In this document: one piece after another, positions 11,167 to 48,699 of the stretch
Numbering within the stretch: position 1 is the stretch's first letter
How the letters are laid out: each line of letters begins with the position of its first letter
NCBI GenBank assembly: GCA_947499255.1
Contig: CANMNF010000003.1
Coordinates: 124,001 to 188,000 of the forward strand
Source of the DNA: an uncultured Sphingomonadaceae bacterium
GTDB taxonomy: Bacteria; Pseudomonadota; Alphaproteobacteria; Sphingomonadales; Sphingomonadaceae
Direction of reading: 5' to 3'
DNA length: 64,000 nucleotides
The notes under the pieces: model-generated
What the model saw: only the letters and a program-made list of their open reading frames with translations
Database searches by the model: none
What the model was told of the DNA's origin: nothing
Translations under genes and position numbers: made by a program

Positions 11167-14100
11167 TTAGAAGCTGACGTTCACACCTCCGACGATACGA
11201 CGGTCAGTGAAGGCTTGCTGACACAGCAGCGCGCCATCATTGATGCAGAACTCATCGCGATTTTCACGCAGCAAGTTGATACCATCAACACCAACAGTAA
11301 TATTGTCGGTCACAGCATAGCTGAGGCTGGCATTAAGCTGACCACGACTGCCAACCACGCGGGGCAGGCCAAAGCGGTTTGTCTGCTGGATGACGAAGTC
11401 AGAACGCCAAGTGTAACGAGCCCGCAGATTGACGCCATATTTGTCATAGAAAAGCGTCGCATTGTACGCATAGTTTGACAGATTTGGCAGTGTCACACGC
11501 TGTTGCACCGGATCATCGGCTGCACGGTCCAAAAGCTGTGACAATGCGTTGCCGCTACCTGTACCTGTGAAGAAGTTGCTGACGTTGCCGCCGTCTTCTT
11601 GGTAGGTGAAGTTCGCGATCACACCAAAGCCCGAAGCAAAGCCAAGCGTATCTTCGTAGCGCGCCAGATCATACTGAAGAGCAACTTCAACACCAGTTTG
11701 CGTCGCCGTGCCTTCAGAGTTGAAGGTCGATGTCAGTGGAACACAGATGCCTACACCTTGGATGGTGGAGAACACGTTACGGTCAGCGAACGGGTTAAAG
11801 ATACCACCGCCTTCACAAGGCGGAGTGATGTCACGTTCGATCGCTCCATTTTCGCCAGTAGGCTCCAATGGGAAGCTGGTTTCTCTCGCAAACAGATTGG
11901 TCCGACGCTTGTGGAAGATGCCAAGGCTCAAAAAGCCGCCATCCGCGAAATAATATTCACCCGATACATCGTAAGACCAAACGGTTTCTGGCTGCAGAGC
12001 CGGGTTGCCCAAGGTAACCGCGTTGCCAGCACCGCCACCAAACGCCACCGAAATCGACAGATCGTCGAAATCAGGACGACGTAGATCGCGAGAAATACCA
12101 GCGCGCAACAACAGGCCCGCCGCAGGCTCAACAACAGCGCTCCAGCGCGGAAGGAAGAACTCGTACGTCGAGGTTTCGCTAAGAGTGTCCACTACCACGT
12201 CGTCCACGACGTTATTACCTATGGAATCGATGGTAGTCTGTACCCAGCGAACACCAATGTTACCCCGAACTGGCGTCCCGAAAAGATTCAGGTCGTAGTT
12301 ACCCTGAGCATAGAGTGCGTTGGTTTTTTCTCTGATGTCAAAGAACGCGGTCAGCGATTGGTTAGGCATGCCGATAAGCGGAATATCTACACCGTTCTGC
12401 TGATTGGAGGTAGTAATCGCACCATTAACCGCAGCAAGAACGGCATCGCTGTTATTGAAGGAGGCGTCTGGGTCGAGGATCAGATAGTTCGGAATGAAAA
12501 GTGTCCGACCATCTGCATCGTTAAAGTTATCCGGACCGGCAGACACAAACTCACTGAAGAGAGAAGCTGAAGGGCGGAAGAAGAACGGCTCGCTCGCCGA
12601 GGTGAAGTTGTTGGTAGAGGTACTGTCAATATTTTCAGCAGTGCTGACATTGTGCCTCCAACCAAAATCGAAAGACGAAAACAGCGGTATGATACCGTCT
12701 GAATCGTAATTCACATCTACCCGGAAAGCGGTTTCGCCATTTTCATTCGTGCTCGCGCCTTGAGAGATCTGGCGCAGGCGATAGTTGGCAGGATCGAGCA
12801 ATTGCTCGGTCGTCGGAGTTTCGGCCAAGCCTTGTGCGATGCCGAATTGCAACGTGCCACCGCGAATATCAAACTCTGCTGGTACGCCATTATCGCTGCT
12901 TTCCCCAAGCACAGGCTGCGGACCATTTGGATTGATGAAGTCGAGCGAGCTGGAAAGGCTTGGGAAAACTGAATTGGATTCCGAACGCGCTACTTCACCC
13001 ATGATGGTGAGGCGACCAACGCCCCATTCAATACCCGATGCAAGAACCGAGCTATTGGTTACTCGTGAACCTGTGCTAGTTGCTGTACGCAAGTTGGGAT
13101 CAATCCCACCAGTTCCAGTTACGCCAACTCCAAGAATCCCCGAGGTAACAGCTTGCACTTCACCCAGAACGTCTGGACCATTGACGCCGTCAACAACGCC
13201 AAGATCAACGGTTTCGAACGTGTTGTTAATGGTGCCGTCGACCACCGCAGAAGATGTTGTGCCGGAGAAGAGCGCGCGACCACTTTGCTGGATCCGCTCC
13301 TGATCGTTGATCGTGGCATCCATATAAAAGCGGAAGTTATCCGCCGGCTTCCATTCGAATGAGCCGTTGAAGTTCTTCGTTTCAAATTCCTGATTGGTAA
13401 TTTGCTGATCGAGAAACTGAATACGCAGGAACGGAAATGCTTCTGCACTGCCAAAGCCTGAATCAGGCAAAACTGTACGGTCGCGGTCAACGCGCGGGGC
13501 AAAGTCGGTGACGTCGAGCTCAGCATAGCTTCCGCTCAAAACGATGCCGATTTCACCAGCAGCTGTATCCCAGCTATTGCCGATGGTTCCGGAGAAGCGA
13601 GGTGAGATTGTATCCGACAGATCGCTGTGTTCAGCTTGAGCCCGGAAAGAGAGTACACGCTCGGTCAGATCGAGTGGACGGATGGTGCGAAGGTTAATCG
13701 TACCGCCAACAGAACCTTCAATGGTTTTGGCTTCGGACACTTTGATGACCTCAACCGCAGCGATCAACGATGCGGGCAAATCTTCAAAGCTGATGCCCGA
13801 ACGACCATTCCCTGCACCCACTGTCGAAACACCGTTAATTTCAACACGGTTCGCGCCGGTGCCGCGGATTTGCACAGCAGTACCAACACCTTGCGAACGT
13901 ATAATCTGGATACCAGTGATATTCTCGAGGACTTCGGCGAGGTTTTGGTCAGGAAGCTTACCGATATCCTCAGCCTGAATGACTTCAACGATATTATCAG
14001 ATTGGCGCTTTTCCTGCAGCGCTTGTTGGAGGGATGCACGGATACCCTGAACCAAAATGACATCGGTGTCAGAATCTTGCGAAGAAACATCAGTGTCGTT

Positions 14101-14202
14101 GTTTGCAGACTGTGCCGCAGCCGAGCCGGAACCGACGGCAATTGCCATCAATGCCAACGCCGATACGGACGCTGATGATTTAAGGAATGTCTCGATTTTC
14201 AT
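11167..14202 (-). CDS. TonB-dependent receptor (Xanthomonas/Caulobacter carbohydrate type)
   Basis: This outer-membrane receptor of 1011 residues should import oligosaccharides using TonB energy. It has a signal peptide ending in GSAAAQS, a plug domain beginning at VILVQGIRASLQQALQEKR and containing SDNIVEVI and LPDQNLAEVLENITG, and a long beta-barrel ending in phenylalanine (GGVNVSF). The IRASLQQAL...K pattern at the plug entrance is typical of the large receptors next to carbohydrate genes in sphingomonads and xanthomonads. I chose the ATG at 14202, preceded by GGGAGAGAG, because it gives a clean signal peptide; the frame extends back to 14397. It is divergent from the DeoR regulator, so it is probably the ulvan oligomer importer. 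Confidence 0.92.
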   Translation of the reverse strand: MKIETFLKSSASVSALALMAIAVGSGSAAAQSANNDTDVSSQDSDTDVILVQGIRASLQQALQEKRQSDNIVEVIQAEDIGKLPDQNLAEVLENITGIQIIRSQGVGTAVQIRGTGANRVEINGVSTVGAGNGRSGISFEDLPASLIAAVEVIKVSEAKTIEGSVGGTINLRTIRPLDLTERVLSFRAQAEHSDLSDTISPRFSGTIGNSWDTAAGEIGIVLSGSYAELDVTDFAPRVDRDRTVLPDSGFGSAEAFPFLRIQFLDQQITNQEFETKNFNGSFEWKPADNFRFYMDATINDQERIQQSGRALFSGTTSSAVVDGTINNTFETVDLGVVDGVNGPDVLGEVQAVTSGILGVGVTGTGGIDPNLRTATSTGSRVTNSSVLASGIEWGVGRLTIMGEVARSESNSVFPSLSSSLDFINPNGPQPVLGESSDNGVPAEFDIRGGTLQFGIAQGLAETPTTEQLLDPANYRLRQISQGASTNENGETAFRVDVNYDSDGIIPLFSSFDFGWRHNVSTAENIDSTSTNNFTSASEPFFFRPSASLFSEFVSAGPDNFNDADGRTLFIPNYLILDPDASFNNSDAVLAAVNGAITTSNQQNGVDIPLIGMPNQSLTAFFDIREKTNALYAQGNYDLNLFGTPVRGNIGVRWVQTTIDSIGNNVVDDVVVDTLSETSTYEFFLPRWSAVVEPAAGLLLRAGISRDLRRPDFDDLSISVAFGGGAGNAVTLGNPALQPETVWSYDVSGEYYFADGGFLSLGIFHKRRTNLFARETSFPLEPTGENGAIERDITPPCEGGGIFNPFADRNVFSTIQGVGICVPLTSTFNSEGTATQTGVEVALQYDLARYEDTLGFASGFGVIANFTYQEDGGNVSNFFTGTGSGNALSQLLDRAADDPVQQRVTLPNLSNYAYNATLFYDKYGVNLRARYTWRSDFVIQQTNRFGLPRVVGSRGQLNASLSYAVTDNITVGVDGINLLRENRDEFCINDGALLCQQAFTDRRIVGGVNVSF

Positions 14203-14568
14203 AGGTATCTCTCTCCCAATCTGTTTTTTTCGGGTCAACTCCGCTAGCCTTGCTCCTTCCCAATGACAATGCGTGATTTGAGATTTGAGCGAAATCGATT
14301 GATAACTGTTGTTTTCTGGCCATAGTGCGTTCGTGGGTTGGACTGCACATTCACCTTTATGGATTGGTGTGCAGATGAAGGGAAAATCGTGAGGCACTAT
14401 GTTTGATCGGTAATCAGAGGGGCAGCCTCATGATGACAATCGCAAGCCGATTTGTTCGTGCGGCGGCCTTTTAAATGGTGCCAGCTTGATGCCTGAAATC
14501 CCGAGTGCAAAAGATAAACAGCGACACGAGTTCGGGATGAATGTCGCCAAAAAATAGAAGGATGGGGC
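14203..14568. promoter_or_regulatory. Divergent promoter region between TonB receptor and DeoR regulator
   Basis: No gene is supported in this 366-nt stretch. It contains TGATTTGA followed by AGCGAAATCGATTG at 14288-14301; nearly the same combination occurs before the FGGY kinase gene, which suggests a shared operator. The receptor start is preceded by GGGAGAGAG and the regulator start by GAAGGATGGG. Confidence 0.6.
14288..14301. promoter_or_regulatory. Candidate DeoR-type operator, copy 1
   Basis: The 14-mer AGCGAAATCGATTG differs at one base from a 14-mer before the FGGY kinase gene, and its core recurs before the NCS1 permease gene. It lies 86 nt before the TonB receptor start. That the DeoR regulator encoded beside it binds here is inference from position. 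Confidence 0.45.
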
Positions 14569-15366
14569 ATGCACGCTGCCGAACGCGAAGAGATCATTCT
14601 TGAGGCATTGCGCAAAAAGGGATTTACCACTTACCGGCATCTCGAAACAAAAGTTGACGCGTCACCGGCAACGATCCGCCGAGACCTCGTCCGGTTGGAA
14701 AAGCTTGGCAAGATCACGCGATTGCATGGTGGTGCCAGAGCGGTGGAGCCTGAAGATAGCACCAGCCGCGCGCTGCGTAGCCTCGAAGGTACGCCCTTTG
14801 AAAAATCCCTCGAAATCAGAATCGGCGCCAAGCGCGCGATTGCAAAGGCGGCTGCGCAATTGTGCCGCAACAGCGAAGGTGTGATCATCGATGGCGGCAC
14901 AACCACATATCAGATGTGTGAATTTCTTGGTGATACTGAACTGCAGGTGCTCACCAATTCCCTGCATATCGTAACCGCGCTGTTGCAACAGGAAACGACC
15001 CAATTGCTCGTTCCATCAGGGCCGATCTTCAGAGAGCAGAACATCATTCTCGCCCCGGCGGGTGAGAAAACCATGCCCAATTTTCATGCAAGCAAGCTGT
15101 TTCTGGGCGCAGCAGCGGTAAGCCCGCGCGGCATCTTCCAGACTGATGCGCTGCTCGTCGCCAGCCAAAGGCGCTTTCTTGAACGCACAGATGAGGTCAT
15201 ATTGGTGGTCGATAGCAGCAAACTGGAAACGTCATCGGGTGCTATCGTTTGCGAGCTCGACCAGATTGATCGCATGATCACAGATAGCGGGGCCGACCCG
15301 GCATTGATTGCTCAGCTTAAGGAAGCGGGTCTGGAGCAAATCGATATTGTTGATCCTGCAAGCTAA
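14569..15366 (+). CDS. DeoR/GlpR-family transcriptional regulator
   Basis: This 265-residue regulator has a DeoR winged helix at the N-terminus (AEREEIILEAL, VDASPATIRRDLVRLEKLG, ITRLHGGA) and a C-terminal sugar-phosphate sensing domain with DGGTTTYQM and the NSLHIVTAL region typical of the family. DeoR proteins usually repress sugar catabolic genes and release DNA on binding a phosphorylated sugar. Its neighbours (TonB receptor, FGGY kinase) suggest that a rhamnose- or fucose-type phosphate is the effector. It is divergent from the receptor and convergent with the oxidase gene, 20 nt away. Confidence 0.92.
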   Translation: MHAAEREEIILEALRKKGFTTYRHLETKVDASPATIRRDLVRLEKLGKITRLHGGARAVEPEDSTSRALRSLEGTPFEKSLEIRIGAKRAIAKAAAQLCRNSEGVIIDGGTTTYQMCEFLGDTELQVLTNSLHIVTALLQQETTQLLVPSGPIFREQNIILAPAGEKTMPNFHASKLFLGAAAVSPRGIFQTDALLVASQRRFLERTDEVILVVDSSKLETSSGAIVCELDQIDRMITDSGADPALIAQLKEAGLEQIDIVDPAS

Positions 15367-15386: not shown

Positions 15387-16535
15387 TTACTCCGGCGCGA
15401 CCAGCATATCGCGTGTGATCTGATCAATCGATGTCGCACCTGTCAATGCCATGCCCACCTGCATTTCAGCTTCAATCAGGCTGAGCATATGGGAGATGCC
15501 TCTCTCCCCATCTGCGGCAAGCGCATAGGCCCATAATCTGCCCAGCAAAACGCCCTTCGCGCCTAAAGCCAACATGCGAATAACATCCAGCCCGGTGCGA
15601 ATGCCGCCATCGGCCAGCACTGTGAGTTCATCGCCAACTTCATCTGCGATCGCTGGCAATGCTCGGGTTGTTGAGGGAACGCCATCCAGCTGTCTGCCGC
15701 CATGGTTCGAGACCACAATCCCATCTGCGCCAAGCGCTGCCGCCTGGCGAGCATCATCTTTGTCCAGAATGCCTTTGATTATCAGCGGACCGTCCCATTC
15801 GGTACGGATGAAGTCCAGATCATCCCACGTTACGGTCGGATCAAAATTGTTGCGCATCCATGCGAAGAAATCTTCGATACCTGAATTTGCACCCAGTACC
15901 GGTGCCACATTGCCCAGACTGTGTGGTTTGCCATTGATGCCAACATCCCAGGCCCAATGCGGCTTCATCGCTCCTTGTACAGCACGCCGGATACCGCCTT
16001 TAATGCCTGGCGCTCCGGCCAGGCCGCTGCGATAATCGCGATACCGCGTTCCGGGCACTGGCATATCGACTGTGAAAATCAATGCGCTGCACCCGGCTTC
16101 TTTGGCGCGGACCATCAAGTCGCGCATAAATTCGCGATCTCGGATCATGTATAGTTGAAACCAGAAAGGTGCGCTCGCAGCCGCATTGACCTCCTCAATG
16201 TCACAAGCCGAAACCGTTGAGAGGGAAAAGGGGATGCCTGCTTTGTTGGCAGCGCGCACGGCCTGACATTCGCCGCGCCGCGCATTCATCCCGGCAAGAC
16301 CAATGGGCGCAAGAGCGCAAGGCAACGCCATCTTCTGGCCAAACAGCGATGTAGACAGATCAATCTGCGAAACATTGTTCAAAACACGTTGGCGCAAGGC
16401 GATCTTCTGCAGATCTTTGACATTGCGATGCAGCGTCTCTTCTGCATATGAGCCGCCATCGATATACTCGAAGAGGAAATGCGGCAGGCGGCGGCGAGCA
16501 AGCTCGCGATAATCGGTACTACTTGCAGGTTTCAT
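15387..16535 (-). CDS. lldD: FMN-dependent alpha-hydroxy-acid oxidase (L-lactate dehydrogenase type)
   Basis: This 382-residue member of the LldD/glycolate oxidase family oxidises an L-2-hydroxy acid, most simply L-lactate to pyruvate. Visible features are the N-terminal [12 protein letters not shown], the FMN-binding LAPIGLAGM, the active-site stretch [11 protein letters not shown] with catalytic histidine and arginine, and the FMN-phosphate region [20 protein letters not shown]. It follows the FGGY kinase gene with a 1-nt TAATG overlap. In the rhamnose pathway that ends in lactaldehyde, lactate is a product, which would explain this enzyme here. The substrate assignment is inference; the symbol refers to the family. 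Confidence 0.85.
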
Positions 16536-17932
16536 TATTTCACCAACATTTCTTCATGCCAGGCATTGACATAAGGTGTGAGATCTTCGTCAAGCGGAGC
16601 AATCTTGCGCAGACTGCCAAGCGGCCGCAAAGTCGGATTGATCAGACGGATTGCACCAAAGCTGACATCATTATGCGCATTGGCGATATAAACCGTCATA
16701 TCAGGAAGCAAGCTGGCGAGCGCACGCACGAACACTTCCGCTTCGGCAAAGCGCCCTTCGACAAGCAGGCGTTGTTCTGAACCAAGCAGGTTAAGCGATT
16801 GGCTGGTGACCAAAGCGGCATACAGGCAGGCAGCGGCGCGGCGTTCAAACCAATCTGCGGGGCGATTGATCCATCCACCCTTTGCATTGGGGAAGGGGCC
16901 ATTGCCGGGAGCCAACGTGGGCAAGACCATTGCTTTGTATTTCAAAACCGCCGGCACTGCTGCCAGAAGCTTGGGCTGATCAGGTTTGATGTCCACTTGC
17001 CGGGTATCGATTTCAATCAAAGTTTCGATCTCGCGGCCGCCCATAAATCGGGCAGAGGGTACAGGTTGGCCGAACGGATCGACATTGGCAAAACAATCGC
17101 GGGTCTCCGGCATACCAGCCAAGGATAACGGCGCGCGGGTCAAACGCATCCCAATAAACCACGTCCCTGTCGAAAGAACGGTGGCTTCGTTATTCTCGAT
17201 TTCGGCAAATCCACGCGCGGCCAATAACGCCGCATTGGAATCGTGCAATCCGACAAGGATTTTCACATCGGGTGACAGCCCCGTTTGCTTGGCAAGCTGC
17301 GGACGTAACGTGCCAACTTGATCATGCGCACGCCGAATTGGCGCAAACCGTGCTGCCCATCCGCGTTCTGTAGCAAGCGTTGAATACGTGCCTTCAGCGA
17401 CATTCCACAAATCAGAATGACAGCCAAGACTGCTGACTTCACTCGATGCTTCACCTGACAGATGCCATGCCCAATATTGCGCCCAAGGCACCAGCGTCGC
17501 GTCGCTGACCTTCGGGCCATAGATGTAATCAGCCCACAACAGCTGAATTCCAAAATTCAGGCCAGCGGGCAATATCGGCGACCCAGTTTCGCAAAATGGT
17601 GAGCGCATATCGTGGTAGGCGTTCACAACTTCTGCAGGCGGCTCGGCCTCATAATCCAGCGGAGGGTAGGCCAATTCACCATCGCGGATCGCTGCGACGC
17701 TGGCGCCATGAGCGACCGGCACGATATATTCAACCGGGTGGTCAGAAAAGTCAGAGAGTGCAGCGTCAACAAAGGATGCAATCGCTGCAACATTGAGGCA
17801 AGCGATGCCATTCTCTTTACAAGGAAGGTTCGCGTGGGAACGCTTTTCAAGCATAATGCCTTCGCGAGACCAGAGCGTTACCTTGCTCCTAGTCTTGCCA
17901 ATATCCACAACAATTGCAAAGCCTTCTTTCAC
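16535..17932 (-). CDS. FGGY-family carbohydrate kinase (rhamnulokinase candidate)
   Basis: This 465-residue sugar kinase starts with the phosphate-binding loop [14 protein letters not shown] and has the second-domain nucleotide region [22 protein letters not shown] holds the likely catalytic aspartate. It would phosphorylate a ketose or deoxyketose in the cytoplasm. Rhamnulose is the best guess because a rhamnose mutarotase and ulvan enzymes lie nearby, but fuculose or xylulose cannot be excluded. It is coupled to the downstream oxidase gene. Its promoter carries the candidate DeoR motif. Confidence 0.8.
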
Positions 17933-18298: not shown

Positions 18299-19492
18299 AT
18301 GTTTGATCGTACTATTCGCAGCCGTATCCTTGCAGGCGCAGCATTGCCCCTGGCCGCCATTCTTGCAGCATGTGCACCAACCGCTGTCGATCAATCGCCT
18401 GCGCCAATTGCTGCGGCCAGCAAGTCTGACAGCGATCCTGCCGCAGTTCGCTATGTCGCCAATAGCGTTGCCAACTGGCAGCTGGCGAACATGACCAATC
18501 TGGAGGAGTGGATCGCCTATATCTCTGGTGAGACAGCGAACCCGCGCGGTTGGGTTAAAGGGACCTTCTTCCTTGGCCTTGCGGATTATGGCGTAAAAAC
18601 AGATCAGCCTGACTACCTCAAAGCGCTTGAAGCCATCGCCGTGCGTGAAGGGTGGCGCATGGGAGATCGTCCTTTTCACGCCGATGATCACCTTGTTGGC
18701 CAAGTTTATTTCATGTTGGATCGTGCTGGCATCGCCTCGGCAGATATTGCTCCAACGCGTGCTGGTTTGGACTATATATTGGCGGACCGTCCGACCAATC
18801 AGATGATGCATCCGGATAAGCCCGGCGATACGCCTTGCTCCAAGCGCTGGTGCTGGTCTGACGCTTTGTTTATGGCCCCAGCGACATGGTGGGATGCTGC
18901 CGAAACCTTTGACAATGACGCCTATGCGCAGTTTGCACATGAGGAGTTCATTGTCGCCACGGATCTCCTTTTCGACCAGGATGAGTCGCTATATTACCGT
19001 GACAGCCGCTTTTTTGATCGTCGCGGAGATGATGGCGAAAAGCTGTTCTGGAGCCGCGGAAATGGCTGGGTCTATGGCGGTCTGGTCAATATCCTTCGAG
19101 TTATGGATGAAGGTGATCCGCGCCGAGCCTATTACGTCGATCTGTTCGTCAAAATGTCTGATCGGCTGGTCGAATTGCAGACAGATGAGGGCATGTGGCG
19201 CGCTTCGCTTTTGGCAACCAGCGAAACTCCGCCCGAAACAAGCGGCACAGGTTTTTTCACCTATGGTCTGACTTGGGGCTTGAATGAAGGCATCCTGCGC
19301 GGAACGCAGTACGAGAAAGCTTCAGCTGAAGGCTGGAGCGCGCTTGTGCGCAATGTCGATGACAACGGCAAGCTTGGCTATGTGCAGCAGGTTGGTGACC
19401 GTCCCAAAGGGGTTAGCCCTGACCATTCGCAGTTCTACGGCACAGGTGCCTTTCTACTGGCAGCCGGTCAGATGCTGCGCCGCGCCGAATAA
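18299..19492 (+). CDS. GH105 unsaturated uronyl hydrolase, lipoprotein
   Basis: This 397-residue enzyme of the YteR/YesR family removes the unsaturated uronic acid left at the non-reducing end by lyases. It has an N-terminal lipoprotein signal with lipobox LAAC at about residues 22-25, so it should be anchored to a membrane facing the periplasm or surface. GH105 hallmarks visible are RGWVKGTFFLGL, HADDHLVGQ, WCWSDALFMAP, WSRGNGWVYGGL and HSQFYGTGAFLLA. In ulvan breakdown this enzyme yields 4-deoxy-hexosulose uronate for KduI/DhuI. It is the first gene on this strand after the divergent promoter. Confidence 0.92.
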   Translation: MFDRTIRSRILAGAALPLAAILAACAPTAVDQSPAPIAAASKSDSDPAAVRYVANSVANWQLANMTNLEEWIAYISGETANPRGWVKGTFFLGLADYGVKTDQPDYLKALEAIAVREGWRMGDRPFHADDHLVGQVYFMLDRAGIASADIAPTRAGLDYILADRPTNQMMHPDKPGDTPCSKRWCWSDALFMAPATWWDAAETFDNDAYAQFAHEEFIVATDLLFDQDESLYYRDSRFFDRRGDDGEKLFWSRGNGWVYGGLVNILRVMDEGDPRRAYYVDLFVKMSDRLVELQTDEGMWRASLLATSETPPETSGTGFFTYGLTWGLNEGILRGTQYEKASAEGWSALVRNVDDNGKLGYVQQVGDRPKGVSPDHSQFYGTGAFLLAAGQMLRRAE

Positions 19493-19674
19493 GGACTTGG
19501 CCGCCTGCCGTATTAGCCGGACACGCGGCGGCGAAGAACTCTCCCGCTTGTACCAATTTAATGGCCGGGCGTATTCATTGTCTGCAAGGTTTAGCCTCTG
19601 AAACAAAATTGTCCCCTCCCAAAGTCGGTGGCCTGACGCGTGTTTGGACACTGGTTGCTTATTTGAGACTTGAA

Positions 19675-21486: not shown

Positions 21487-21590
21487 CGTCAGCCTCCTCT
21501 TTCAAAACCCGACCAATTTTTGCATAAGCAGTCGGGAAATCTGAAAATCATTCAATTTTGATCATTAGCAAACCCAGTTTGGAGCCACCA

Positions 21591-34370: not shown

Positions 34371-34418
34371 ACGAACTGCCGCGACACATTGAACTGCAAG
34401 TTTTGACAGGAATGATTT

Positions 34419-35951: not shown

Positions 35952-35975
35952 TTCGTAAAAAGAGGTAATTTAACA

Positions 35976-40191: not shown

Positions 40192-40200
40192 GTCAGCCTT

Positions 40201-40248
40201 CTTGGCGGCGTCCCCATTAGTTTCCTCCCACAAGGGGGCGCCGCCAAG
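40201..40248. terminator. Long stem-loop after TonB receptor 2
   Basis: Fifteen-base arms (CTTGGCGGCGTCCCC and GGGGGCGCCGCCAAG, one mismatch) enclose 18 nt, just after the receptor stop. No T-run follows, so it may be a weak terminator or an mRNA-protecting structure that lowers expression of the next genes. Confidence 0.55.
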
Positions 40249-40302
40249 TTCATGACGACCACTGGTAAACGCGCGAGCAGTCATTTAAGGAGTAAATATC
40301 CA

Positions 40303-40317
40303 CGCGTCTTACCAAAT
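40303..40317. promoter_or_regulatory. Candidate GntR operator before the gntR gene
   Basis: CGCGTCTTACCAAAT is, on the other strand, ATTTGGTAAGACGCG, matching the GGTA-NN-AC pattern of the other sites. A partner half, GGTAAACGCG, lies at about 40264, so the two form a widely spaced inverted repeat. Confidence 0.4.
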
Positions 40318-40336
40318 GGGGGATTTAGGAGCGGCA

Positions 40337-41077: not shown

Positions 41078-41080
41078 ATC

Positions 41081-41098
41081 AATTGGTATTACACTAAT
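41081..41098. promoter_or_regulatory. Candidate GntR operator before the alginate lyase operon
   Basis: AATTGGTATTACACTAAT matches the motif before TonB receptor 2 (AATTGGTAGGACACTTA). It lies just after the gntR stop and about 90 nt before the PL6 start. Confidence 0.5.
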
Positions 41099-41184
41099 AT
41101 ACTAAAGATCAATCCAGATTGATTGACAATCATTGCGACTCCCCTATTGTCACTCTCACAAAATAAGATGAGAGGGACGATCGT

Positions 41185-43455
41185 ATGTTCACCAGGCTTT
41201 GCCTTGGCGTGATTTTGGCGTGGTTGGCCGTGTCACCGGCCCATGCTGAAAATCATTTTGTACGCAACCAGAACGAATATGCGCATGCCTTGGCGCAAAT
41301 TGAGGCTGGCGATGTCATCATTCTTGCCAATGGCGTATGGCGTGATTTTGAAATGGTGATTACCGGGGAAGGGCGGGCCGATGCCCCGATCACCATCATC
41401 TCTGAAGAGCCGGGCAAAGTGTTTCTTACCGGGCAATCCAGTTTGCGCATTGGTGGCAATTATATCTTCGTCACAGGGCTGATCTTCCGCGATGGTTATA
41501 GCCCGCGCGGCGAAGTCATCTCCTTTCGCCGGAACAAGCAGGACCTGGCCCGCAATTCGCGTGTGACCGAGGTCGTGATTGATGGTTTCAGCAAGCCGGA
41601 CCGTTATGAGTCCGATTATTGGGTTGGCCTGTATGGGCAGAGCAATCGTTTTGATCACAACCTTCTGGTGGGCAAAACCAATAAGGGCGTTACCTTGGCG
41701 GTGCGTCTCGACAGCGAAGAGAGCCGCGAAAACAATCACCGCATTGATCACAATTATTTCGGCCCGCGCCCTGTTTTGGGCTCCAATGGCGGGGAGACTT
41801 TGCGCGTCGGCACCAGCCGGTATTCGATGTTTAATTCCAACACTTTGGTTGAAAACAATATCTTTGATCGGTGTGATGGCGAAGTTGAGATTATCTCATC
41901 GAAAGCAGGCGGGAATATATATCGCGGTAATGTGTTCCTGCGTTCTCGCGGCACGCTGACTTTGCGCCATGGCGATGGCAATTTGGTTGAGCGCAATGTC
42001 TTTCTTGGCGAGGGCAAGGATTACACAGGCGGCATTCGCGTTATCAATCAGCACCAAACGGTGCGGCACAATTATATGGAAGGCCTTCGCGGCACCGGCT
42101 TTTCCAGCGCGCTGACAGTGATGAACGGCGTGCCCAATTCGCCCGTCAATCGCTATGTCCAGGTGCTCAACGCACATATTGCCAACAACACTGTGATCGA
42201 TAGCCGCCGGATAACGCTTGGCGCGGGCGCGGATGAAGAACGCTCCGCTCCGCCGATTGAAAGCGTTTTTGCCAACAATTTGCTTGGCGGTTTGGAAAGC
42301 GGGACTTTCATCGAAGTCGATGCAGATATTTCCGGCATCGCATTTAGCGGCAATCGCATTACCACAGGCAATGTGCATAGCGCTTTGTCAGACATGCCGC
42401 GCGCTCCTGTTGCAATGGAGCGGGCCGAGAATGGTCTGCTCTATCCGGCGGATGAGGCATTATCAGCTCTGGGCGCGCCGCGCGATTTGCAGCCTGTCGC
42501 ACTCGATCAAGTGGGCGTGAATTGGTATGCCAAGCCGTCCAACGATACTCCCTTTGCCACGAGCGGCAATGTGACGGCAGTCGCGGCGCAAGAGAACGCG
42601 CTTGTCGCCGCCATTGCGAATGCTGAAACGGGCGATGTGCTTGAGCTTGCACATGGTGAACATGTGATCGATCGCACCATTCAGCTCGGCAAAGCGATCA
42701 CCATCAAAGGCGCCACCCAAGAAGACGGACAAGGCGCGGTTCTGATGTTCTCGCGCCCGTCACTGTTTGAACTGCGCGAAGGCGGTAATTTGCAGCTGAT
42801 CAATCTGGTTATTGATGGCGCGCTGGCACCGGATTCGGTGGGCAATGCAGTGATCCGCACGACCACCTATCCCATCAAATCCAATTTCCAGATCGAAATG
42901 GACAGCGTGCAGGTTCGCGGACTTGTGGTGAACAAGTCTTTCAACGTGCTCACGCTTGGCAAAAGCACGCTGGCTGACCGGGTTCTGATCCGCAATAGCA
43001 GCTTTTCCGACATAACCGGCGCGGTCCTTTCGGCAAGTGCTGAAACTGAGGATTTTGGCCAGTATAATGTCGAATATCTCGATATCATCGACAGCGCTTT
43101 TAACAATGTCGGCGGTCCGGTGGCGGATGTGTATCGCGGTGGCCGCGATGAAAGCACCTTTGGGCCGTTTGTCACCTTCACCGGCAATGCGCTTTCCAAT
43201 GTCGGTTTGGCCACCACCAATGGCTCTGGCGCATCGCTGAACTTGCATGGTGTGCAAACAACTAAGGTCGCCAGAAATGCCTTCTTCAAAGGTGCGCCTC
43301 TGCGGATTGTCCATACTGTCGGCACGCCTGTGACCAGCGTTGAAGGCAATGCCTTTACCCAAACCGCCAAGCCCGTTCTTGAAGAGCTGAATTACGAAGG
43401 CGAGCCGCGCGTACTGATGGCGGGCAATGTCCTTGATGGGGAGCCTGTCGAATGA
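41185..43455 (+). CDS. PL6 alginate lyase
   Basis: This 756-residue polysaccharide lyase of the chondroitinase-B/alginate-lyase family 6 has a signal peptide (LAVSPAHAEN) and a long right-handed beta-helix. Key PL6 features are NGGETLRVGTS and CDGEVEIISSKAGGN, with the likely catalytic lysine, and LTLRHGDGN with the arginine. A second region (about residues 450-756) continues beta-helix-like repeats, as in two-domain PL6 enzymes. It would cleave alginate in the periplasm or outside. It overlaps the PL17 gene by 4 nt. Confidence 0.93.
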   Translation: MFTRLCLGVILAWLAVSPAHAENHFVRNQNEYAHALAQIEAGDVIILANGVWRDFEMVITGEGRADAPITIISEEPGKVFLTGQSSLRIGGNYIFVTGLIFRDGYSPRGEVISFRRNKQDLARNSRVTEVVIDGFSKPDRYESDYWVGLYGQSNRFDHNLLVGKTNKGVTLAVRLDSEESRENNHRIDHNYFGPRPVLGSNGGETLRVGTSRYSMFNSNTLVENNIFDRCDGEVEIISSKAGGNIYRGNVFLRSRGTLTLRHGDGNLVERNVFLGEGKDYTGGIRVINQHQTVRHNYMEGLRGTGFSSALTVMNGVPNSPVNRYVQVLNAHIANNTVIDSRRITLGAGADEERSAPPIESVFANNLLGGLESGTFIEVDADISGIAFSGNRITTGNVHSALSDMPRAPVAMERAENGLLYPADEALSALGAPRDLQPVALDQVGVNWYAKPSNDTPFATSGNVTAVAAQENALVAAIANAETGDVLELAHGEHVIDRTIQLGKAITIKGATQEDGQGAVLMFSRPSLFELREGGNLQLINLVIDGALAPDSVGNAVIRTTTYPIKSNFQIEMDSVQVRGLVVNKSFNVLTLGKSTLADRVLIRNSSFSDITGAVLSASAETEDFGQYNVEYLDIIDSAFNNVGGPVADVYRGGRDESTFGPFVTFTGNALSNVGLATTNGSGASLNLHGVQTTKVARNAFFKGAPLRIVHTVGTPVTSVEGNAFTQTAKPVLEELNYEGEPRVLMAGNVLDGEPVE

Positions 43456-45632
43456 TCCGTACAGGCTTCCTCGCTGTACTGTTTGCAGCATCTATAACGC
43501 AGCCAGCACTGGCGCATGGGCATGAAGCTGTGGCGGCGCAAACAAGCGCTATGATGCCCGCCTTTTTCACTGCCGAGATGGAACGCGCGCAAAGCTTCGT
43601 TGCGCAGATGATGGAACAGGGCGTCATTGTCCCTGAACCCAAGGATCCGGGCGGCGGATACACCCACGAACAGCATAAGCGCAATTACCGCGCGATGTAT
43701 CTTGCCGGGCAATTGTTTCGCATCACCGGTGATCAGGTTTACGCTGATTATGTCCGCGATATGCTGCTCGATTATGCCGCGCTTTATCCCACTTTGGGCG
43801 AACATCCGGCCAAAGCCAGCACAAATGTCGGGCGGCTTTTCTGGCAAGGTCTTAATGATGCGGTGTGGCTGGTCCATTCGGTGCAGGGTTATGGCGATAT
43901 TCGCGATACTTTGTCCGACGCGGACCGTGATCTGATCGACAATCAGGTGTTCCGCCGTGCGGCAAATTTCTTATCGGTGGAATCGCCGCACACCTTTGAT
44001 CGGATCCATAATCACGCCACATGGTCCACCGCTGGCGTTGGCATGACCGGTTATTTGCTGGGCGATCAGGATATGGTTGATCGCGCTTTGCTAGGCTCTG
44101 ACAAAAGCGGTGAGACGGGTTTTCTGCGTCAGACCGAATTGCTGTTTTCGCCCGATGGGTATTACACAGAAGGGCCGTATTATCAGCGCTATGCTTTGAT
44201 GCCGTTCATGGTTTTTGGCGGTGCGATTGCGCGCAATGATCCAGATCGTCGCATTTTTGAACATCGCGATGGCATTCTGCTCAAAGCACTCCAGACGACC
44301 ATTCAGCTGACCTACGGCGGATATTTCTTCCCTTTCAACGATGCGATCCGCGACAAGAGCCTCAACACAGATGAGCTGTATCACGGCGTGGCGATTGCTT
44401 ATGCCGAGACGCGGGATCCGGGCCTGTTGGCAATTGCACAATGGCAGGGGCGCACGATCTTAACCGATGATGGTTTGGAGCTGTCCCGCGATCTTGCCGC
44501 GGGCAAAGCGCAAGCTTTTGATTTCCGCTCGATGCTTTTGTCAGATGGGCCAGATGGCGATCAAGGAGCGGTAGCGATCCTGCGCGATGGCCAGGAGCAT
44601 GGTGAAGATCACACAACACTGGTCGCCAAGAACAGCTCGCAAGGGATGGGGCATGGCCATTTCGATAAGCTGGCATGGCAGCTTTACGATAACGGCAATG
44701 AGATCGTGCGCGATTATGGCGCGGCGCGTTTTCTCAATATCGTTGCCAAAGCTGGCGGGCGCTATCTTCCTGAGAATGAAAGCTGGGCCAAGCAAACCAT
44801 CGCGCACAATGCGCTGGTGGTGAATGAGCGCAGCCATTTCGACAAAGATGCCGATGTGGCCGATATGTTTGCGCCCACGCAGCTGTATTTTGCCTCAACG
44901 CCAGAACTGCAGATTAGCACAGCGGCGATAAACACTGCCTATCCGCAAGAGCAGGTGACGATGCTGCGCAGCTTGGCGATGATGGAGGTGAAGGGTCTTT
45001 CCGCGCCTATCATAGTCGATGTGATGCGTGCGCAAGGGCAAGGCGATCTGCGGTTTGATTTGCCGCTGCATTATTCCGGCCACATCATGGAAATGGGCTT
45101 TGACACACAAAGCAATGTGACCACACGGCCAGTGCTTGGCGATAGCAATGGATATGAGCATATCTGGGTCGATGCGACCGGCATGCCAGAAGCGGGTGAG
45201 GCTTATCTCACATGGCTGCTGGATGGGCGTTTTTACACCTATCGGTTTGTCCCGCATGGTGAAACGCAGGCGATCCTTGGGGAAAGCGGCGCGAATGATC
45301 CTGCGTTTAATTTGCGACGCGAACCGATCATTATTCAGCGCGTCGACAATTCCGACCAAGCCACTTTTGTAAGCGTTCTGGAATCGCACGGTTTGTCAGA
45401 CGGGGCTGCTGAATTGGTTGTTGGCAGCACCAGCCAAATCGCATCACTGCGCCATGTCGCGATGGGCGGATATGATCTGGTCGTGGTGGAAACGGTTGGC
45501 GGCGTGAAGGCGGCTATGGCGCTTTCTTACGATAATGATGCGGCCAAACAGCACGCCATCACGTTCGAAGGCCAAGAGCTGTTCTGGACCGGTTTTGCCG
45601 CAAGGATCGAACTTGCCGGGCAAGGCGATTGA
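43452..45632 (+). CDS. PL17 oligoalginate lyase (heparinase II/III-like)
   Basis: This 726-residue exo-acting lyase releases unsaturated monomers (converted to DEH) from alginate oligomers. It has an N-terminal signal (IRTGFLAVLFAASITQPALA), an alpha/alpha-barrel with NHATWSTAGVGMTGYLLGD carrying the asparagine-histidine pair, and FSPDGYYTEGPYYQRYAL carrying the catalytic tyrosine, as in Alg17C. The C-terminal half is a heparinase-II/III-type beta-sandwich domain with GMGHGHFDKLAW, a metal-type histidine motif. It acts after PL6 in the same operon. Confidence 0.94.
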   Translation: MIRTGFLAVLFAASITQPALAHGHEAVAAQTSAMMPAFFTAEMERAQSFVAQMMEQGVIVPEPKDPGGGYTHEQHKRNYRAMYLAGQLFRITGDQVYADYVRDMLLDYAALYPTLGEHPAKASTNVGRLFWQGLNDAVWLVHSVQGYGDIRDTLSDADRDLIDNQVFRRAANFLSVESPHTFDRIHNHATWSTAGVGMTGYLLGDQDMVDRALLGSDKSGETGFLRQTELLFSPDGYYTEGPYYQRYALMPFMVFGGAIARNDPDRRIFEHRDGILLKALQTTIQLTYGGYFFPFNDAIRDKSLNTDELYHGVAIAYAETRDPGLLAIAQWQGRTILTDDGLELSRDLAAGKAQAFDFRSMLLSDGPDGDQGAVAILRDGQEHGEDHTTLVAKNSSQGMGHGHFDKLAWQLYDNGNEIVRDYGAARFLNIVAKAGGRYLPENESWAKQTIAHNALVVNERSHFDKDADVADMFAPTQLYFASTPELQISTAAINTAYPQEQVTMLRSLAMMEVKGLSAPIIVDVMRAQGQGDLRFDLPLHYSGHIMEMGFDTQSNVTTRPVLGDSNGYEHIWVDATGMPEAGEAYLTWLLDGRFYTYRFVPHGETQAILGESGANDPAFNLRREPIIIQRVDNSDQATFVSVLESHGLSDGAAELVVGSTSQIASLRHVAMGGYDLVVVETVGGVKAAMALSYDNDAAKQHAITFEGQELFWTGFAARIELAGQGD

Positions 45633-45633
45633 T

Positions 45634-45717
45634 ATGGCGATGATGATGCAAGCGGGAGCCATGCCATTTGTCTTTGCACGTGATGGCGCGGCTGAAAAAC
45701 CTGGGGGAGGGGCCTGA
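45634..45717 (+). CDS. Possible 27-residue leader-type peptide
   Basis: A tiny frame of 27 codons (MAMMMQAGAMPFVFARDGAAEKPGGGA) begins 1 nt after the PL17 stop and ends 2 nt before the MFS start. It resembles no protein I recognise. It could be a coupling peptide, the remnant of a lost gene, or chance. Confidence 0.25.
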   Translation: MAMMMQAGAMPFVFARDGAAEKPGGGA

Positions 45718-45719
45718 TA

Positions 45720-47009
45720 ATGATGAAGGGAAATTTGCGCTGGGCGATTGTGATCCTGGTCGCGATTGCGACGATCATCAATTACATTGATCGCGGGGCG
45801 CTGGGCTTTTTGTGGCCTGAAATCTCACAGGACCTTGGGCTGACCAAGACCGATTATGCGATCATCCTCAATGTCTTCACTTTCGCTTATGCGTTTGGCC
45901 AGGCTCTGTTTGGGAAGATCTTTGACTGGATCGGTGTGCGGCTGGGCTTTGTGCTGTCCATCGTCGTTTGGTCGGCGGCAACCATGGCCCATGCCCTGGC
46001 AGTGGGCCTAATGAGCTTCACCATTTTTCGCGCCATCCTTGGTGTATCAGAAGCGGGCAATTGGCCGGGCGCTACCAAGGCGAATGCCGAATGGTTCACG
46101 ATTAATGAGCGCGCACTTGCGCAAGGTATTTTCAATTCTGGTGCGGCGATTGGCGGGATTGTATCTGCACCGATAATCGCGTTTGCCTTTGTGTTTCTGG
46201 GCACGTGGCAGGCGACCTTTATTGCGCTGGGCGCACTGGGCTTCTTGTGGCTGATCCCGTGGCTGATCGTTTACAAATCAGGCCCAGACACACATCCTTG
46301 GGTCAGCGAGGAAGAACGCCAGTTTATCCTCACCGGACAGCGCAACAAAGATGTTGGCGAAACGGCTGACTATGCGCCGGGTTCTGCAGAAATCCTGTCC
46401 CGCAAGGAAAGCTGGGGCGTGATCATGGCCTCATTTTTCCTCGATCCGATCTGGTGGCTTTTTGTGGGGTGGTTGCCGCTTTATCTGGCCGAAACCTATG
46501 GCTTTGGTGTTGTGGAAATCGGCAAATACGCCTGGGTGCCTTATGTCGGCGCGATGTTTGGCGCGTGGTTCGGCGGGTTACTGGCACAAAATCGCATCAA
46601 AGTTGGCTGGTCGGTCAACAAGACGCGCAAAAGCGTTATTGCGCTTGGCGGCGTGATCATGTTGATCTCGTTGCTCGCCACGACGCAGGCGGCAACGCCA
46701 TTGTTCGCCGTTTTGTTGATGGCTGCGATCTTGTTTGGCTTCCAAACCGCGGTGGGCAATATCCAAACATTGCCCAGCGATTTTTACTCAGGTGGTTCGG
46801 TCGGCACGCTTGCAGGCTATGCCGGAACGGCGGCAAAACTTGCCGTAGTGGGCCTCAATTTCCTGATCCCGGTAATAACAGTGAATAGCTATGCACCTGC
46901 CTTCGCGGTTGGGGCTGCGCTGGCTATTTTAACGGTTCTTTTGGTCTTCATTTTGTGCCCGGACATTAAACCGCTCAAACCCAAATCAACCACTCAAACA
47001 ATTTCCTAA
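45720..47009 (+). CDS. MFS transporter, hexuronate/ExuT-like
   Basis: This 429-residue major-facilitator permease has 12 helices. It belongs to the anion-cation symporter branch, with NYIDRGALGFLWPEI in helix 1, GKIFDWIGVRLG in the 2-3 loop, and FRAILGVSEAGNWPGATKANAEWF in helix 4, all shared with ExuT and DEH transporters. It likely brings unsaturated uronate monomers (DEH) into the cytoplasm. Start at ATG 45720 after GGGGGAGGGGCC; an in-frame ATG follows directly at 45723. Confidence 0.92.
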   Translation: MMKGNLRWAIVILVAIATIINYIDRGALGFLWPEISQDLGLTKTDYAIILNVFTFAYAFGQALFGKIFDWIGVRLGFVLSIVVWSAATMAHALAVGLMSFTIFRAILGVSEAGNWPGATKANAEWFTINERALAQGIFNSGAAIGGIVSAPIIAFAFVFLGTWQATFIALGALGFLWLIPWLIVYKSGPDTHPWVSEEERQFILTGQRNKDVGETADYAPGSAEILSRKESWGVIMASFFLDPIWWLFVGWLPLYLAETYGFGVVEIGKYAWVPYVGAMFGAWFGGLLAQNRIKVGWSVNKTRKSVIALGGVIMLISLLATTQAATPLFAVLLMAAILFGFQTAVGNIQTLPSDFYSGGSVGTLAGYAGTAAKLAVVGLNFLIPVITVNSYAPAFAVGAALAILTVLLVFILCPDIKPLKPKSTTQTIS

Positions 47010-47023
47010 GGACGGGGCAGAAT

Positions 47024-47779
47024 ATGAATCTTGCAGGTAAGGTAGCAATCGTAACTGGCGGCAGCCGCGATATTGGTCGCGCAATTTGTGTCAAACTCGC
47101 CAGCCAAGGCGCCAATGTTGCGGTGAATTATCGCAGCAATGAAGCCGAAGCTGATGCAACGCTGGCAGCGATTGCGGCTGCTGGCGGTGGCAAAGGCATC
47201 AAAGTTAAAGGCGATGTGACCAAGCCTGCAGATGTTGCAGGCATCGTTGCCCAAACGCGCGAAGCGTTTGGCGATGCGATCCATATCCTTGTGAACAATG
47301 CCGGCGGACTGGTCGCGCGCAAAACGCTGGCAGAGATGGATGAGACGTTTTTCAATGATCTCATGCAGCTCAACGTCACCTCAACCTTTTTGGTCACGCA
47401 GGCCGTAGCTGCGCATATGAGCGAAGGCGCTTCGATCGTGAATATTGCTTCTATCGCGGGGCGTGATGGTGGTGGCCCGGGCGCAAGCGCTTATGCAACG
47501 GCAAAAGGCGCTGTCATCACTTTCACCCGTTCAATGGCGAAGGAGCTGGGTCCCAAAGGCATCCGCGTCAACGCGCTGTGCCCCGGCATGATTGCGACCA
47601 AATTCCACGATGAATTCACCGCCGATCAGGCGCGCGCTAATGTGGCAGGAGCAACCCCGCTGCGCCGCGAAGGGCGTGCCGAAGAAATCGGTGATGCGGT
47701 GGCGTATCTTGCATCTTGTGAAGCATCTTTTATCAATGGCGCGAATGTCGATATCAATGGCGGACTCGCCTTCTCCTGA
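47024..47779 (+). CDS. DEH reductase (short-chain dehydrogenase)
   Basis: This 251-residue SDR has TGGSRDIGRAI (cofactor), NNAG, and the catalytic YATAK in ASAYATAKGAV. By position in an alginate operon, between a uronate transporter and KDG kinase, it should reduce 4-deoxy-5-hexosulose uronate (DEH) to KDG, as the A1-R enzymes do. The sequence NYRSNE after the second strand favours NADPH, since an arginine there often binds the 2'-phosphate; this is inference. Starts after AGGACGGGGC. Confidence 0.88.
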   Translation: MNLAGKVAIVTGGSRDIGRAICVKLASQGANVAVNYRSNEAEADATLAAIAAAGGGKGIKVKGDVTKPADVAGIVAQTREAFGDAIHILVNNAGGLVARKTLAEMDETFFNDLMQLNVTSTFLVTQAVAAHMSEGASIVNIASIAGRDGGGPGASAYATAKGAVITFTRSMAKELGPKGIRVNALCPGMIATKFHDEFTADQARANVAGATPLRREGRAEEIGDAVAYLASCEASFINGANVDINGGLAFS

Positions 47780-47802
47780 TCCGGCCGATATCAAGCAACG
47801 CC

Positions 47803-48699
47803 ATGACCACCTTTATTTTTGGCGAAGCAATGTTGGAATATCACTGCCAAGGCGGGGCCGGCGCTGGCCTGCGCTTTGGCGGTGATACATTAAACACCGC
47901 GATCCATCTTGTGCGGGCCGGGCACCATGTGTGTTATGTGACGGCCGTTGGTACCGACCCGATCAGCGATGCGCTTGTCGCCAAGTGGGAACGCGAGGGA
48001 ATCGATACGCGCCACGTGCTGCGTCACCCCGATCGCAGCCCCGGCATCTACGCGATCCGCCTTGATCAAGCTGGTGAGCGCAAGTTCCTGTATTGGCGGG
48101 ATAAAAGCGCGGCGCGCGATATGTTTAATCTGGACGGGATCAACGCAGCGCTCGAAGCGGCGGCCGATGCCAGACTAACCTATTTCAGCCTGATTTCGCT
48201 GGCGATCCTTGATAAAGCGGGGCGCGATCGATTGCTGGATTTCTCAGCACAGCGCAAACGTGCTGGGCTGGCGGTCGCCTATGACAGCAATTTTCGCCCC
48301 AGCCTGTGGCCGGACTACGCCGCTGCGCAAATAGCATCGCAAAAGGCGATGGAAAGCTGCACCATTGGTTTGCCCACAAATAGCGATGAACATGCCCTGT
48401 GGGAGCGCCAAGAGGCCGAGGCACAGATTGTCGCAAGGTGGCTTGATGCAGGGCTTGATACCATCGCGGTGAAAGCAGGTGAGCACGGATGCTTTTTGGC
48501 GAGCGCGCAGCAGCAGGGCGCATGTCAGCATAAAGCGACATCGGTCGAGGTGGTGGATAGCAGCGGTGCGGGTGATGCTTTCAATGGCGGTTTCTTAAGC
48601 GCCTGGCTGGACAATCAAGCGCCTGAGGCCTGTGTAGAAGCCGCGCAAGCCACTGCGCGGCGCACGCTGGGCCACCAAGGCGCAATCAGCCTCACATAG
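47803..48699 (+). CDS. kdgK: 2-keto-3-deoxygluconate kinase (PfkB family)
   Basis: This 298-residue sugar kinase has the PfkB features GGDTLNTAIHL near residue 27, AYDSNFRPSLW, and the ATP/catalytic signature VDSSGAGDAFNGGF. It phosphorylates KDG to KDPG, the meeting point of the alginate, ulvan and uronate routes. KDPG aldolase is not in the window. The gene ends the alginate operon, just before the tRNA genes on the opposite strand. Confidence 0.92.
   Translation: MTTFIFGEAMLEYHCQGGAGAGLRFGGDTLNTAIHLVRAGHHVCYVTAVGTDPISDALVAKWEREGIDTRHVLRHPDRSPGIYAIRLDQAGERKFLYWRDKSAARDMFNLDGINAALEAAADARLTYFSLISLAILDKAGRDRLLDFSAQRKRAGLAVAYDSNFRPSLWPDYAAAQIASQKAMESCTIGLPTNSDEHALWERQEAEAQIVARWLDAGLDTIAVKAGEHGCFLASAQQQGACQHKATSVEVVDSSGAGDAFNGGFLSAWLDNQAPEACVEAAQATARRTLGHQGAISLT

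Follow-up and report, generated by a model that had tools for sequence, protein, structure and literature searches.

Gene content of the locus

We analysed a 64,000-nucleotide window of the genome (2.96 Mb) of an uncultured Sphingomonadaceae bacterium (assembly GCA_947499255.1, contig CANMNF010000003.1, positions 124,001–188,000; coordinates below are those of the window, with + and − for the two strands), in which a run of genes at 11167–48699 had been picked out, in a reading made from the letters alone, as one composite locus for the utilisation of ulvan and alginate. The locus begins after a Crp-family gene (10224–10991) and ends 24 bases before a tRNA-Thr gene (48724); between these borders, every gene class named in that sequence-only reading was located by Pfam or NCBIfam matches, as were the separate TonB-dependent receptors (TBDRs; two) and regulators (DeoR, LacI and GntR). 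Several genes had been passed over: those for a β-helix protein, a hydratase-like protein, an RpiB-like isomerase, KduD, a tripartite ATP-independent periplasmic (TRAP) transporter, a permease and LldD. The proposed division into two halves gives way to three modules, hereafter A (ulvan, 11167–32530), B (β-helix/isomerase/KduD cassette at the join, 32574–36734) and C (alginate, 37084–48699), of which module B recurs independently elsewhere. As the likely substrates, ulvan and alginate, polymers of green and brown seaweeds respectively, are well supported by family membership and catalytic residues.

Both propeller lyase-like proteins of the earlier description are indeed BNR_4 proteins. The one at 31082–32530 (+) is a PL25 ulvan lyase: it is similar over its full length (residues 37–474 of 482; 586.6 bits) to the solved ulvan lyase 5UAM (PLSV_3936), and four PLSV_3936 residues with described roles (PMC8377490; papers are cited here for the parts of their text accessible to us), Tyr188, His123, Arg204 and His143, are all kept, as Y185, H119, R201 and H139 (the alignment chain index equals the published numbering minus 24, an offset fitted on these four residues). 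The other propeller (19561–21057, +), while sharing the fold, is closer to GH145/PL42 than to PL24/PL25: its best PDB matches are to GH145 (140 bits) and then PL42 (48.7 bits), with PL24 at 20 bits only, and against NF052497 it reaches 175.5 of 700 bits. H146, H166 and R217 align to His90, His110 and the matching Arg of BT3686, that is, to the lyase-side base-acid His, second His and neutralising Arg, and R105 occupies the position of the posterior catalytic His48, leaving the residue set of a GH145 hydrolase incomplete (roles from PMC8377490). Since the lyase-side residues are kept but His48 is replaced by Arg105, we read this protein as PL42-type; it looks like a candidate exo rhamnosyl-glucuronate lyase acting on Rha-GlcA ends.

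At the left end of module A lie TBDR1 (11167–14397, −; PF00593/PF07715; start codon uncertain) and a DeoR-family regulator (14569–15366, +; PF00455, PF08220). Orthologues of TBDR1, 67–71% identical, stand at the DeoR end of ulvan loci in G121, G250, G041 and G179, and in the same four genomes the DeoR orthologue adjoins FGGY/LldD (G, L and C numbers denote the genomes compared, the fetched stretches and contigs, respectively). Next come LldD, an FMN-dependent L-lactate dehydrogenase for the rhamnose end-product (15387–16535, −; NF033901, 570.7 bits, cut-off 550), an FGGY sugar kinase (16535–17932, −; PF21546, PF00370), probably a rhamnulokinase as judged by its context, and a GH88/GH105-type unsaturated uronyl hydrolase (18299–19492, +; PF07470). 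Beyond the PL42-type propeller are the L-rhamnose mutarotase RhaM (21172–21486, −; PF05336, 95.3 bits), the 5-dehydro-4-deoxy-D-glucuronate isomerase KduI (21558–22427, +; NF002091, 366.6 bits, cut-off 250), an S1-type sulfatase with a CSPSR signature at residue 100 (22472–23971, −; PF00884) and a DUF4861 protein (23968–24927, −; PF16153) with an N-terminus that by eye is lipoprotein-like and a weak match to the BT3233 family (32.6 bits). A 547-residue permease (24982–26625, −) is distantly CytX-like (TIGR02358, 30 bits, far under the cut-off), profile and family searches having given no firm identity, and is followed by the TRAP transporter genes dctM, dctQ and dctP (26745–29528, −; PF06808, PF04290, PF03480) and a LacI-family regulator (29699–30775, +; PF00356, PF13377), which precedes the PL25 gene.

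Module C corresponds, as predicted from sequence, to a standard alginate set of receptor, GntR regulator, PL6, PL17, transporter, reductase and kinase. Orthologues of its receptor TBDR2 (37084–40191, +; PF00593/PF07715), 60–68% identical, lie beside PL6 in G179, G180, G120, G082, G250, G273 and G254; the receptor at this place in G121 is nearer to TBDR1 (47%). Behind a GntR/FCD regulator (40316–41077, +; PF00392, PF07729) lies the PL6 alginate lyase (41185–43455, +), assigned to the family by a similarity to AlyGC that spans the whole protein (5GKD, 746.2 bits); K240 and R261 are present at what we take to be the Lys/Arg pair of AlyGC (R241A appears in a PDB title). The set is completed by a probable PL17 oligoalginate lyase (43452–45632, +; PF05426, PF07940, PF22686), a major facilitator superfamily (MFS) transporter that by context probably takes up 4-deoxy-L-erythro-5-hexoseulose uronate (DEH) or oligouronates (45720–47009, +; PF07690), a short-chain dehydrogenase/reductase (SDR) that context alone marks as the probable DEH reductase (47024–47779, +; PF13561) and the PfkB-type 2-keto-3-deoxygluconate (KDG) kinase KdgK (47803–48699, +; PF00294, with NF052444 as the best match).

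Module B opens with a right-handed β-helix protein (32574–34295, −; start placed at the ATG of MQVKQ), a distant relative of PL29. The AlphaFold model is confident (mean predicted local distance difference test score, pLDDT, of 92.5), and among the best 50 of 722 Foldseek matches, where the highest query-normalised template modelling (TM) score is 0.46, phage tailspikes and capsule lyases come first and GH28 and mannuronan C5-epimerases lower. Every one of the 26 aligned family members matches the model of the PL29 lyase BT3328 (NF058554) with an E value no worse than 0.001; the window protein was rejected as PL29 proper, its 71.6 bits lying far under the cut-off of 1100. The motifs HHxE, HY, DQHxGxNxQN and PGxG are conserved throughout this alignment, which omits L153 (the G213 copy, with one stop in the aligned part) and L158 and L159 (duplicates of L162 and L164). 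Divergent from it is a hydratase-like protein of 259 residues (34419–35198, +), which Pfam left unnamed at E 0.001; a profile made from its family matches the 4-oxalocrotonate decarboxylase NahK and MhpD, and its model (pLDDT 92.5, TM 0.77 to MhpD) has the MhpD/HpcG fold. E110, E112 and E131, which we take from that superfamily to form the metal site, are invariant in 18/18 aligned sequences (the partial L177 left aside). An RpiB-type isomerase follows (35271–35951, +; PF12408, PF02502; NF006753, an unnamed family, 315.3 bits, cut-off 137), likened to DhuI on the basis of its RpiB/LacAB family and its pairing with KduD, DhuI presumably being the RpiB-type isomerase of 4-deoxy-L-threo-5-hexosulose-uronate. 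Last is KduD, 2-dehydro-3-deoxy-D-gluconate 5-dehydrogenase (35976–36734, +; TIGR01832, 391.1 bits, cut-off 338.85; two further KduD models are not reached).

The β-helix cassette occurs in genomes that have no PL25

The β-helix protein was found in 18 of 249 genomes of the family sample; a class-wide draw of 385 genomes gave 4 carriers, of which two belong to the family. Thirteen of the 18 lack PL25, and in all 13 the β-helix gene is accompanied by the hydratase, a LacI regulator (49–62% identical to that of the window) and an isomerase (RpiB-type in 10, KduI-type in 3); DctM and KduD are there in 12 each, the G092 stretch ending before KduD. Relatives of the window’s PL25, PL42-type, GH105 and sulfatase proteins were found in none of these 13 fetched stretches. 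As the cassette thus comes as a unit of its own in 13/13 β-helix genomes without PL25, module B is, judging by gene content, probably an independent polyuronate system. PL6 also occurs in 12 of the 18 β-helix genomes, as compared to 28/249 in the family overall, and in G060, G235, G047 and G120 the alginate block adjoins the β-helix cassette.

An alternative that we doubt, and nonetheless take seriously, is that the β-helix protein serves in ulvan breakdown alone (as an additional ulvan lyase, a GH28-type hydrolase or a uronate C5-epimerase) and that the locus comprises two modules and not three. The protein is present in 5/5 PL25 genomes of the family sample, GH28 and mannuronan C5-epimerases are among the fold matches listed, and a further copy in the window genome adjoins an aldolase–SDR fusion and GH105. 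It also lies directly beside PL25 in 3 of 79 PL25 loci (kept out of 102 confirmed), one each from a Hyphomonadaceae, a Caulobacterales and a Glaciecola member and hence none from Erythrobacteraceae; the hydratase was not found at these three places. Against this stand the 13 PL25-less carriers, with their stretches free of relatives of the window’s ulvan enzymes, and the ten further neighbouring open reading frames sampled from four of them (G068, G132, G213 and G092), among which no carbohydrate-cleaving function was recognised: a PfkB kinase, a BCCT transporter, a sulfotransferase, a TonB receptor, an oxidoreductase, a helicase, AcrB, an integrase, a propeller and RelA/SpoT.

Three more β-helix paralogues are encoded in the window genome (L162, L163 and L164, on C2 and C3; 64, 43 and 56% identical): one by rhamnose genes and GH105, one by a GH105-type and two sulfatase genes, and one by sulfatase and sulfotransferase genes. 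In the same-genus genome G213 a phage-integrase-family gene (C18, L189:11500–12714) lies about 170 bp after the β-helix gene, whose aligned part is interrupted by a stop; in that genome the cassette may be on the move or in decay.

A palindrome pair links the TRAP and β-helix promoters

An operator-like palindrome, TTGTCACCGGTGTCAA (29583–29598), lies between dctP and lacI, and a second, TTGATACCGGTGTCAA (34355–34370), lies in the divergent promoter of the β-helix and hydratase genes. They form the only near-identical palindrome pair (16 bp) between two intergenic regions of the locus, and letter-shuffled intergenic regions yielded zero such pairs in 20 trials. The exact pattern TTGNNACCGGTNNCAA occurs at 3 places in the genome, 2 of them in the locus; allowing one mismatch, it is found at 21 places versus 13 for the reversed control (exact control matches not separated out), and the loose form is thus hardly above chance. 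Across genomes, a site within two mismatches of TTGACACCGGTGTCAA is present within 500 bp upstream of the β-helix or hydratase gene in 17/19 cassettes, and none was seen at the 8/8 β-helix places where no hydratase was found. The 595 kb of fetched stretches hold 21 such sites, as compared to 0, 0 and 0 in three first-order Markov resamplings. We rejected a single operator common to all three modules: no shared palindrome reaching the alginate genes was found in the intergenic regions of the locus.

Four of six judged Erythrobacteraceae genomes have the ulvan and alginate blocks side by side

In the family sample PL25 occurs in 5/249 genomes, PL6 in 28/249 and both in 4. Relatives show synteny for the ulvan block and for the alginate block alike, and the locus is therefore more than a chance list of genes, which we rejected as an explanation. 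Comparison with other Erythrobacteraceae, as the sequence-only reading had suggested, bore out the neighbourhood in part. PL25 and PL6 lie 9–17 kb apart in four of the six genomes that could be judged, namely the window genome, G121, G179 (Pontixanthobacter rizhaonensis RZ02) and G250, with identical order and orientation in all four, while in G254 (Aurantiacibacter marinus) and G273 they are on different contigs (G250, G254 and G273 came from the PL25 locus search; G082 was too fragmented). The G250 stretch is located about 255 kb from that genome’s own copy of the tRNA site, and the adjacency is thus found at different chromosomal sites. PL25 without PL6 is seen in G041 and in two uncultured Erythrobacter bins (G249 and G252), and the alginate block without PL25 in G180 and G120. 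Of the 79 kept PL25 loci, 44 went forward to a genome search for PL6, which covered 43, and 41 of the latter were covered again for PL25. PL6 was present in 26 of the 36 other PL25 genomes searched, and in 0/26 did it share a contig with PL25 at a distance of 90 kb or less, many of these being drafts in which adjacency could be missed. The juxtaposition, called unusual in the sequence-only reading, is uncommon outside Erythrobacteraceae.

The two blocks disagree in their histories. In nine ulvan-block proteins G179 groups with G121/G273 (85–86% identity, support 100); five proteins of the alginate block place it with G254 (support 100), at 65% identity to the former two; these trees hold only six and seven taxa. 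In an 18-row tree of PL6 the 4 adjacent proteins need 4 label changes, as many as in 500/500 shuffled labellings, and 0/200 bootstrap trees group them; the rows were picked from loci in hand and not from all PL6, those without PL25 are non-adjacent by definition, and the changes may include losses. A single inherited composite is accordingly not favoured. The conflict implies that the blocks were joined more than once or that the alginate block was replaced in place; together, the comparisons suggest a neighbourhood assembled, or partly replaced, repeatedly.

In G250 a single stretch of about 72 kb holds an aldolase fusion, ulvan, β-helix and alginate genes, a second GH105-type gene, a formylglycine-generating enzyme (FGE) and GH43, with enzymes not seen among the window genes, and the window looks like a compact, split version of it. 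The G250 ulvan locus also encodes a 645-residue heparinase II/III-like protein not seen in the window (L126:15827–17764), which may be another lyase, and GH15 and GT20 genes stand between its alginate and ulvan blocks (L126:1949–5174).

Genomic setting

We regard it as unlikely that two unrelated, ordinary loci were placed by chance at a variable, tRNA-bordered region and that their adjacency has no functional meaning. The setting speaks for such an account: the locus ends next to the tRNA-Thr(CGT) gene (48724–48799, −), the right border of the variable region, to the right of which gene order is kept in 4/4 same-genus genomes and in G250. No orthologues of the locus were found across the tRNAs in the fetched 8–18 kb of these genomes, where an SDR (32%), a sulfatase piece (35%) and an ABC protein (30%) gave weak, paralogue-like matches. 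The separate regulators, the conflicting trees and the non-adjacent blocks of G254 and G273 point the same way. On the other side, 4/6 judged genomes have the blocks as neighbours, with one order and orientation throughout and with differing positions on the chromosome. A spacing of less than 20 kb in a 3 Mb genome is expected by chance in about 1% of cases (simple arithmetic; the genomes are not independent), and no att-like repeat is seen. A search at E 1e-30 did not find the left-border Crp gene in any of the 4 same-genus genomes; a true empty site is thus not demonstrable, and only the right border is defined.

A glycosaminoglycan-like polymer of animal or bacterial origin is highly improbable as the target of the first half: the β-helix and DUF4861 proteins are distantly related to BT3328 (PL29, a chondroitin/hyaluronan lyase) and BT3233, but the PL25 active site is intact, RhaM and LldD are present, an aldolase–SDR fusion and an isomerase-like TIM barrel lie elsewhere in the genome, and no amino-sugar gene was seen among the window genes scanned with Pfam (those up to 53965, save a few small ones).

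Several features of the surroundings stand apart from these arguments. The tRNA-Thr/tRNA-Cys pair (48724–49842) is the border of the conserved order, and between the tRNAs and the next conserved gene other DNA is present in G014 (about 9 kb) and G165 (about 6.6 kb), which gives the site the look of a hotspot. We rejected an insertion at tRNA-Thr that duplicated the end of the tRNA gene, words of at least 14 bases from the tRNA region not recurring in the window as an att-like repeat, and no integrase was seen among the scanned genes. To the left, cbb3 oxidase genes and the Crp-family regulator (5259–10991) adjoin the locus; to the right, a polyhydroxyalkanoate synthase gene (phaC, 52010–53965) lies 3.3 kb from kdgK, a proximity that is probably incidental, PhaC being part of the conserved stretch.

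A model of three juxtaposed modules

Family membership, catalytic residues, gene order, the palindrome pair and the conflicting trees, all read from sequence, lead us to consider it likely that the locus is a stack of three juxtaposed, not fused, polyuronate-degradation modules that would all feed KDG. Its import routes, regulation and flux, and the substrate and activity of module B, we infer as follows. In module A, the PL25 endolyase would make ulvan oligosaccharides, which would be taken up and trimmed by the sulfatase, the PL42-type exolyase and GH105; monomers would be imported via the TRAP transporter and the permease, rhamnose passing to L-lactate and the unsaturated uronate to KduI. 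In module B, an exported β-helix lyase would yield unsaturated uronates; after possible hydration or linearisation by the MhpD-fold protein, these would be turned into KDG by the RpiB-type isomerase and KduD. The TRAP operon and module B are probably both under the control of one LacI, acting via the shared operator. Module C would be a GntR-controlled alginate system of PL6, PL17, MFS transporter, DEH reductase and KdgK. Modules A and C would have been brought together, or C replaced in place, more than once in Erythrobacteraceae.

Pathway genes outside the locus bear on this model. Near 910–918 kb on contig C2, a class II aldolase–SDR fusion (84% identical to the one inside the G250 locus), a xylose-isomerase-like TIM barrel, a second FGGY kinase, GH105 and a β-helix paralogue lie together, and the KDPG aldolase Eda is encoded on C1. 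The sequence-only description of one continuous locus claims too much unity: the regulators are separate, no shared palindrome extending to the alginate half was found, the histories conflict, and the genes for a rhamnose isomerase-like protein and an aldolase lie outside the contig of the locus.

Several points weigh against this model. PL17 and KdgK fall under their NCBIfam cut-offs (NF042990, 977.4 of 1400 bits, though three Pfam domains match; NF052444, 241.7 of 400 bits), the GH105 protein has no fitting NCBIfam name and a weak other name only, and the roles of the SDR, MFS and FGGY proteins rest on context. PL25 and PL6 being on different contigs in G254 and G273, with PL6 far from a contig end, counts against a fixed association, and in G121 the β-helix gene is on a different contig than the ulvan block. 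As for the operator, the upstream regions of G068 and G210 have TTGACACCGGTGTCAA sites with three mismatches only, no site within two mismatches was found upstream of the window genome’s other three β-helix copies, and none was seen between LacI and TRAP in G121, G179, G250, G041 and G273; the link between LacI/TRAP and module B is therefore seen in this window only.

A bolder version, which we put forward tentatively and hold to be improbable as a whole, makes module B an undescribed polyuronate system: the β-helix protein would found a new lyase family and act alone on a uronic-acid-rich polymer, an MhpD-type hydratase and not the KdgF cupin would open the unsaturated uronate before the RpiB-type isomerase and KduD, LacI would control the genes through the TTGACACCGGTGTCAA operator, and ulvan and alginate modules would have been assembled beside it more than once. 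The glucuronan of Ulva cell walls is one candidate substrate.

Comparison with known systems

The ulvan polysaccharide utilization locus (PUL) of Formosa agariphila has SusCD; here there are TonB receptors and no SusD among the scanned genes. The two are alike in having a lyase, a sulfatase, GH105, rhamnose release and an unsaturated uronate; the F. agariphila PUL has P30_PL28, GH78, GH3 and a dehydratase predicted with PL37, and the window PL25, a PL42-type propeller and the β-helix protein (PMC8511951). Pseudoalteromonas marina PUA1001 likewise combines PL25 and sulfatases in a Pseudomonadota ulvan locus, also with PL24 and PL40; in the accessible text alginate is named in a reference only (PMC13050008). 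The PL42-type propeller resembles FoRham1 (PL42) and BT3686 (GH145) in fold and in its lyase-side His, His and Arg, and differs from BT3686 in the Arg at the GH145 His48 position, ends longer or shorter by 26 residues lying outside the comparison (PMC8377490). The β-helix family is distantly similar to BT3328, the PL29 lyase of Bacteroides thetaiotaomicron (26/26 members), but the window protein is far under the family cut-off and glycosaminoglycan genes were not recognised around it (PMC6994673).

Literature searches, which mostly did not cover subscription papers, showed no joined ulvan–alginate locus among the titles listed, nothing joining ulvan lyase, alginate lyase, polysaccharide utilization loci and sphingomonad, and nothing on DUF4861; the accessible parts of PMC10233909 and PMC9676036, which concern ulvan, alginate and Erythrobacter, do not describe this locus. 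What is new is an arrangement of known catabolic parts together with one uncharacterised cassette, in our view the most interesting element: it suggests a lyase and perhaps also a hydratase step for which the accessible text of the literature examined describes no counterpart, and purified proteins and available polymers would allow a test. Where green, brown and red seaweeds are co-located, Erythrobacter is listed as one of their dominant genera (PMC10233909), and the locus would explain at the genetic level how a bacterium can live on more than a single seaweed. Should the adjacency have been rebuilt independently, it would also serve as a natural experiment on whether selection draws pathways together at their meeting point, here KDG. 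A parallel for the combination itself is Alteromonas sp. 76-1, which has ulvan lyases (PL24/PL25) and alginate lyases (PL6/PL7/PL17/PL18) in one organism; there, ulvan degradation is tied to a 126 kb plasmid and the alginate lyases are largely in two loci (PMC6431674), whereas here the ulvan and alginate sets are contiguous.

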